From positions 62,001 to 126,000 of the forward strand of contig JABLXE010000003.1 of assembly GCA_013178225.1 (NCBI GenBank): 64,000 nucleotides of DNA, read 5' to 3'. Position numbers and translations under genes: made by a program. The stretch is from Methanotrichaceae archaeon (GTDB lineage: Archaea > Halobacteriota > Methanosarcinia > Methanotrichales > Methanotrichaceae). Below, in pieces: positions 44,297 to 45,245 of the stretch. Position 1 is the stretch's first letter. The number at the start of each line of letters is the position of its first letter. Below the pieces are notes generated by a model that did not search any database, was not told the origin of the DNA, and saw only the letters and a program-made list of their open reading frames with translations.

Positions 44297-44974
44297 TCAC
44301 AGCACGTTGAACCGCTTCCAGGCCTCTTCGATGTGCAGGGTCTTCATGCCGATTCTTGCCGCAGGGACGATATCGTTATCGAAATTGTCGCCGATGGCCA
44401 GCAGCTCCTCGGGCTCTAAATCGAGCTTCCTTGCCGCCTCCAGAAAGATCCTCGGGTCCGGCTTCTTGTGGCCGAAGTCGGAGGAGAAGATCACATGCTC
44501 AAAGCGGTCATAAAAGCCCAGGTACCTGAGCTCGAGCTCAGAGAATACCCTCTGTCCGTTGGATACTATGGCCTTCGGGTAATCGTTCAGCTCCTGCAGC
44601 AGCCGCTCGCTCTGGGGAAAGGGCTGCAATCTCTCCAGGGTTGCGGCTCTAAAGGTCCGGCTGGTCTCTTTTCCCAGAGCCTCGCTATCGATCTCCCATA
44701 CGGCATGCCTTTCGCAGATCTTTCCCCATACCGCTTCAACTCTTACCTCCGGATAGGCTTCCCACCTGCTCTCCATGTATTCCTTCACCCCTCTCCGGTA
44801 CTCGGCCATCAGCTCCTCCGGGGAGACCCTGACCCCTTGATAGATCAGCCATCTGGCCACCGGCTTGTAGCTGCTGATATCCCCTTCGTCGGTGCTGATA
44901 TTAATGAGCGTGTTGTAGCAGTCGAATATCACTCCCTTGATGCCTTCATATCCCAGCTCCTCCAAATTGGCCAT
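44297..44974 (-). CDS. HAD-superfamily hydrolase
   Basis: 225 residues from ATG 44974 (MANLEELGYEGIKGVIFDCY). The HAD motifs are DCYNT (I), VSNGQ (II), GHKKPDPRIF (III) and AIGDNFDNDIVPA (IV), all intact; the nucleophile is the first Asp. Substrate is probably a phosphorylated metabolite and cannot be named. AGAGGT lies about seven bases before the start. The upstream in-frame extension to 45058 overlaps the shared promoter and is rejected. Confidence 0.88.
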   Translation of the reverse strand: MANLEELGYEGIKGVIFDCYNTLINISTDEGDISSYKPVARWLIYQGVRVSPEELMAEYRRGVKEYMESRWEAYPEVRVEAVWGKICERHAVWEIDSEALGKETSRTFRAATLERLQPFPQSERLLQELNDYPKAIVSNGQRVFSELELRYLGFYDRFEHVIFSSDFGHKKPDPRIFLEAARKLDLEPEELLAIGDNFDNDIVPAARIGMKTLHIEEAWKRFNVL

Positions 44975-45028: not shown

Positions 45029-45040
45029 GATATATAAAAA
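45029..45040. promoter_or_regulatory. Divergent TATA element for HAD gene and candidate RNA
   Basis: GATATATAAAAA reads as TTTTTATATATC on the minus strand, a strong box for the HAD gene, and as TATATAAA (45031-45038) on the plus strand, which places a plus-strand start near 45059. TATA boxes are nearly symmetric, so the element can serve either or both. Confidence 0.5.
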
Positions 45041-45058
45041 TTGTTCAACTATATTCAT

Positions 45059-45245
45059 GCCGGTGATACCCGTACCGGTGGCCGCCCAGATCTAAGAGGG
45101 GATGAAACCGCCCGCAGGGAGTAGCCAAAAGTGTATTAGCGGACGGCCTAGGCTGATAATACTAGTAGAGAATATGTGTAGGTTGGCCTGGCAGGACGAA
45201 AGTATTAGGGCGCGCATTTGGCCGATGCCCAGGTGCGTTTTTTTT
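45059..45245 (+). ncRNA. Candidate structured RNA of about 185 nt
   Basis: No protein frame covers this stretch. A plus-strand TATATAAA at 45031-45038 would start RNA near 45059. The RNA can fold: CCGGT(9)ACCGG at the 5' end; CGGCCTA pairing TAGGTTG across about 28 bases, needing two G-U pairs; and a 3' hairpin CGCATTTGG(7)CCAGGTGCG directly followed by T8. Both wobble-containing stems form only in plus-strand RNA, which supports the direction. It ends 80 bases before the next gene and does not match an RNA family I know. Confidence 0.5.
45213..45245 (+). terminator. Hairpin and T8 ending the candidate RNA
   Basis: A nine-pair stem CGCATTTGG (45213-45221) and CCAGGTGCG (45229-45237), including two G-U pairs, with a seven-base loop, then eight T (45238-45245). 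The layout matches an intrinsic terminator on the plus strand; the complement strand would break two pairs. Confidence 0.7.

Follow-up and report, generated by a model that had tools for sequence, protein, structure and literature searches.

A candidate small RNA of methane-producing archaea, read from the minus strand, with a promoter operator common to DNA-repair genes and a tail complementary to ftsZ start regions

What lies between a HAD hydrolase gene on the minus strand and a cyclophilin-like gene on the plus strand in a 64,000-nt stretch of a Methanotrichaceae genome (the whole of this stretch is called the window hereafter)? The gap holds an A/T-rich box and a hairpin followed by T8, and the original prediction had seen in it an unassigned structured RNA that is neither RNase P RNA, SRP RNA nor a tRNA. 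This core of the prediction stands, although with a different strand, a different promoter and a different terminator; the gap is indeed non-coding for the most part, its ORFs being short and overlapping. The RNase P RNA and the SRP RNA of the same genome are found elsewhere (G000:C8:10603-10908 and G000:C12:22673-22988, respectively), and the covariance models of Rfam 15 matched neither the region or its vicinity, permissive settings included, nor the copies from Methanosarcinaceae presented below, on which ground a known RNA family was rejected for the locus. Nor did we find the RNA described in the open-access papers searched.

An initial search of relatives gave the conserved core in one other species. 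A short pattern then placed it in 17 of the 50 genomes of the family Methanotrichaceae, the reversed pattern giving 0; a covariance model (R1) recovered it in 8 of the 11 genera of this family, in some of them through weak matches, and also reached Methanosarcinaceae; finally, the two conserved ends, joined by a gap into one pattern, were matched in 66 of 238 Methanosarcinia genomes, and the reversed pattern at one place only. An exact-pattern scan of genome contigs was discarded, its matches being mostly chance ones in bacteria. In total, about 60 conserved copies are spread over the two families; in putative Methanosarcina, no full copy was found with the gapped pattern or with a sequence-only model (R2). 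The alignment of relatives does display a conserved stretch with compensatory changes, but this stretch covers about 45095-45206 and is to be read on the minus strand; the sequence flanking the element showed no conservation in relatives. Small insertions and deletions separate the copies, which argues against coding, and these indels, together with in-frame stops, led us to reject a self-encoded small peptide. One has to keep in mind that two loci of the alignment A7 and of model R2 (L178 and L179) are hef promoters in which coding sequence mimics the tail of the RNA; they are not copies of it and were excluded from the structure and target tests. The window's own genome carries a second, divergent copy at G000:C5:19079-19190 (L172), and a second, divergent kind of this RNA gene can be recognized in Methanotrichaceae (L172, L187, L189, and L190), with a P1 hairpin of the form GGAG-CAGCC/GGCUG-CUCC and a tail ending in UCCCU. 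That the locus is a small-RNA gene of methane-producing archaea, not listed before, is in our opinion well supported by this comparison of genomes.

The strand of the gene was the next point to settle. The stems had been thought to need G-U pairs valid only in plus-strand RNA; the aligned copies contradict this, as wobbles in hairpin P1 are G.U on the minus strand (A.C on the plus strand) in 25 cases vs 12 that are G.U on the plus strand. Folding points the same way: the minus-strand RNA of the window is more stable than shuffled sequences (z -2.04), its plus-strand counterpart less stable (z +1.19), and of 58 copies, 49 have their lower z on the minus strand. Model R2 yielded many partial matches that cover only the plus-strand 3' half of the element; on the opposite strand, these places are promoters, with AWTACTTTCRNNCYGC, followed after about 10 nt by a TATA box and then by a protein gene, which indicates that the element is read on the minus strand. 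We thus consider the minus-strand position of the RNA gene, as judged from aligned sequences, well supported.

The features of the locus are collected in Table 1. The RNA would begin near 45150, a position deduced from the TATA spacing, and would consist of hairpin P1, whose pairing is retained across copies through compensatory changes while its sequence varies, and of a tail that is single-stranded except for its first base in the predicted fold of the window. The possible minus-strand terminator is not conserved, and its T5 overlaps the box formerly read as a plus-strand TATA box; in many copies from Methanosarcinaceae the tail is followed by U-runs, which are not uniform in Methanotrichaceae. 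Three further elements were considered and set aside: a second plus-strand helix after P1 is weak, and its region proved to be the promoter; a pseudoknot proposed by RNAalifold shows no double changes and spans the promoter; a pairing of plus-strand GGGGAUG with the 3' end of the 16S RNA was abandoned, as its mismatched base is conserved.

Table 1. Coordinates of the predicted features in the window and loci of the putative regulon.
Feature	Position	Strand	Basis
Predicted small RNA, core of about 56 nt (start within a few nt)	~45095..45150	-	about 60 conserved copies; minus-strand folding
Hairpin P1, 11 bp (arms 45149-45139 / 45115-45105)	45105..45149	-	fold; compensatory changes and wobble pattern
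C-rich loop segment CUACUCCC (GGGAGUAG on the plus strand)	45117..45124	-	alignment, conserved in Methanotrichaceae
Tail UCAUCCCCUC, predicted ftsZ-pairing seed	45096..45105	-	conserved; complementary to ftsZ ribosome-binding sites
Operator AATACTTTCGTCCTGC (consensus AWTACTTTCRNNCYGC)	45191..45206	-	common to DNA-repair gene promoters; pattern count vs reversed pattern
TATA-like box TACACATATTC	~45170..45180	-	operator spacing same as in 64 operator-bearing promoters of other genes
Possible terminator, tentative: hairpin CCGGU/ACCGG (45078-45060) and T5 (45040-45036)	45036..45078	-	sequence and fold
Putative regulon loci	L272, L282, L283, L297, L298, L302, L314, L323 and others		AWTACTTTCRNNCYGC upstream of TATA

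The promoter of the RNA is the part of the element that it has in common with other genes. The operator pattern has 64 sites in 17 genomes, against 1 for the reversed pattern, and the site at the RNA gene is the sole one in the window, even allowing one mismatch; the TATA-like box is, in Methanotrichaceae, a weak match to the TATA consensus. The genes found behind the operator include radA, replication factor A (RPA), rSAM_link_UDG, uvrA, DNA polymerase IV (dinB), xseA, recQ, hef, and tnpB, as well as mcm and nre; the window's own genome has three operator sites, of which one is the radA promoter (L302). An operator placed before repair genes is the signature of an SOS-like DNA-damage regulon and, as a signature read in sequence, AWTACTTTCRNNCYGC ahead of TATA would define such a regulon in Methanosarcinia. 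As this operator is common to the promoters of radA, RPA, uvrA, recQ, hef, dinB and others, the RNA is expected to be made when DNA is damaged. Other sites deserve mention in their own right. In the window's own genome, an operator site stands ahead of a coiled-coil protein (L307:4080-4624; G000:C24:68579), some 2.4 kb away from that of radA. The operator also precedes tnpB genes (L258, L261, L320, and L321), as if these elements had captured a host damage promoter, and a haloarchaeal upstream region (L276 and L340, in G543) has a TATA-like box and CACTTTCACTCCGCGTGGCTC, a sequence close to this operator.

Could these data be explained without a minus-strand, stand-alone RNA? A plus-strand structured RNA running as a complete unit from the TATA box at about 45029 to the T8 at about 45245, as first proposed, can point to real letters: an A/T-rich box does exist at about 45029-45040 and the hairpin plus T8 is present. 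However, relatives have conserved neither the box nor the T8, shuffled sequence folds as stably as the plus strand of 45050-45245 (z -0.24), and wobbles and folding favor the minus strand, so that this unit seems extremely unlikely to us. We find it hardly more credible that conservation is limited to a promoter operator, the hairpin and tail downstream being no functional RNA; the operator half does occur in multiple copies by itself, but beyond the operator the tail stays fixed while P1 is rebuilt by compensatory change. The hairpin might, on the other hand, act in cis, as the 5' leader behind a regulated promoter of a minus-strand protein gene, here the HAD hydrolase: downstream of the element, both the window and genome G024 have a HAD gene on the minus strand, and at L008 and L050 it is a co-directional GTP-binding gene that comes next. 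Against this stands the neighborhood of the other copies: the next gene is convergent in most of them (MfnA-like, queE, purQ, MsrA, or HIT), leaving nothing to lead into, so the RNA stands alone and a leader function is unlikely; we hold this explanation to be improbable. Independently of this question, the HAD gene (44297-44974, minus strand; L291) lies downstream on the same strand as the small RNA, here and in G024, and read-through could add it to the regulon.

If the minus-strand RNA acts in trans, its conserved tail is the obvious place to look for a target. In four Methanolobus-like genomes, ftsZ has an exact 11-nt complement of the tail at its start. As this first lead came from a search with the tail itself, ftsZ was re-tested on loci obtained by protein homology: the gene was re-fetched from 15 genomes, and four of the proteins were confirmed as FtsZ by Pfam. 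In Methanosarcinaceae, the start of ftsZ carries GAGGGGAUGAA or a near variant. We ranked start regions by the energy of their duplex with the tail of the genome in question, leaving out the loci obtained via the 11-mer; the background consists of a few hundred ORFs from the retrieved loci, and ftsZ genes of one family, being related, do not count as independent. With one representative tail for each family, seven ftsZ genes of Methanosarcinaceae rank 1-7 of 202 and seven of Methanotrichaceae rank 1-5, 11, and 12 of 246; a 16S anti-Shine-Dalgarno probe fails to pick out the same genes, placing them at 43-61 and 7-203, respectively. Composition-shuffled tails did equally well, by mean rank, in 5 of 100 trials for Methanosarcinaceae and in 0 of 100 for Methanotrichaceae. 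The window's own genome, queried with its own tail, gives a lesser result, its two ftsZ genes ranking only 8 and 14 of 246. An ftsZ site near-complementary to the tail is kept in G041 and in putative Methanosarcina, where the RNA was not recovered as a full copy.

We regard as probable that the locus encodes a DNA-damage-induced, minus-strand antisense RNA that blocks ftsZ translation. DNA damage would activate the operator-bearing promoter, common to repair genes, and the small RNA would be transcribed; this trans-acting RNA, a hairpin followed by the C-rich single-stranded tail CAUCCCCUY, would pair in the cell with the ribosome-binding site and start codon of the ftsZ mRNA (GAGGGGAUGA and variants); initiation of ftsZ translation would be blocked and FtsZ lowered; with less FtsZ, division would be delayed during repair. 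The same small RNA of the damage regulon may nonetheless have its main target elsewhere, its tail pairing with other ribosome-binding sites or binding a protein. The operator and RNA evidence is independent of ftsZ, and the tail has matches in further start regions, namely that of a small membrane protein and, twice, the leader of an uncharacterized gene; yet, in both families, ftsZ genes obtained through protein homology come before almost every other gene, and we judge a main target other than ftsZ rather unlikely, while giving it real weight. Two observations made along the way concern neighboring matters. The leader of a protein of about 250-320 aa with no Pfam match (L341, L351, L364, L379, and L384) has UGAGGGGAUGA-like sites complementary to the tail of the small RNA, two of them in tandem in several genomes. 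A conserved intergenic element of Methanosarcinaceae, GAGGAAACGG...UGAGGGGAUGAAUGGUUUUGCUUGGUUACAG (L353, L361, L369, L371, L372, and L375), is perhaps another small RNA.

The analysis bears on two questions: how DNA damage is coupled to cell division in Archaea, and whether methanogens possess an SOS-like regulon. It offers a candidate regulon defined by sequence, with its operator and roughly a dozen families of genes, together with an RNA that is named, can be deleted and has its predicted target among the components of cell division. We lean towards the view that an SOS-like transcriptional regulon for DNA damage exists in Methanosarcinia and that one of its members, a small RNA, halts division through a block of ftsZ translation; this RNA would then be an archaeal RNA counterpart of SulA, evolved independently of the bacterial RNA DinR.

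Among archaeal systems, sRNA162 of Methanosarcina mazei is likewise a methanoarchaeal trans-acting small RNA with mRNA targets and, as described (PMC3510493), differs from the present RNA in role and targets. The operator recalls the UV-B motif TTTCACTTTCA of Halobacterium sp. NRC-1, which precedes the TATA box of radA1 and of further UV-induced genes and has a near-match at a transposase gene (PMC2556686); our operator likewise precedes TATA at the radA of the window's own genome (L302) and of others. The two have only the core ACTTTC in common: the exact 11-bp TTTCACTTTCA does not occur in the window operator AATACTTTCGTCCTGC, which, unlike the UV-B motif, continues with CRNNCYGC and lacks the TTTCA repeat, and the study of TTTCACTTTCA describes no RNA gene (PMC2556686).

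In bacteria, RNA control of ftsZ or cell division is exerted by the prophage-encoded DicF and the cis-antisense StfZ, both of E. coli; in the accessible parts of their descriptions, neither is presented within a DNA-damage regulon (PMC5069750, PMC9628754). OxyS of E. coli, an oxidative-stress small RNA, halts division for DNA repair indirectly, via nusG and KilR (PMC5793797), whereas the archaeal RNA is predicted to pair directly with ftsZ; no homology is claimed. The closest parallel is DinR of Klebsiella pneumoniae, an SOS-controlled small RNA that occupies the ftsZ ribosome-binding site, is processed from the LexA-controlled dinI mRNA and depends on Hfq (PMC10907235). Like DinR, the archaeal RNA would belong to a DNA-damage regulon, here through the operator common to repair genes, and would have the ftsZ ribosome-binding site as its target, to judge from the complementarity ranks given above for both families and for the window's own genome (8 and 14); unlike DinR, it has its own archaeal promoter and a different operator, most of its copies do not lie behind a co-directional gene, and here again we claim no homology. 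If true, the same logic as that of bacterial DinR would have arisen in another domain, a clear case of convergence.
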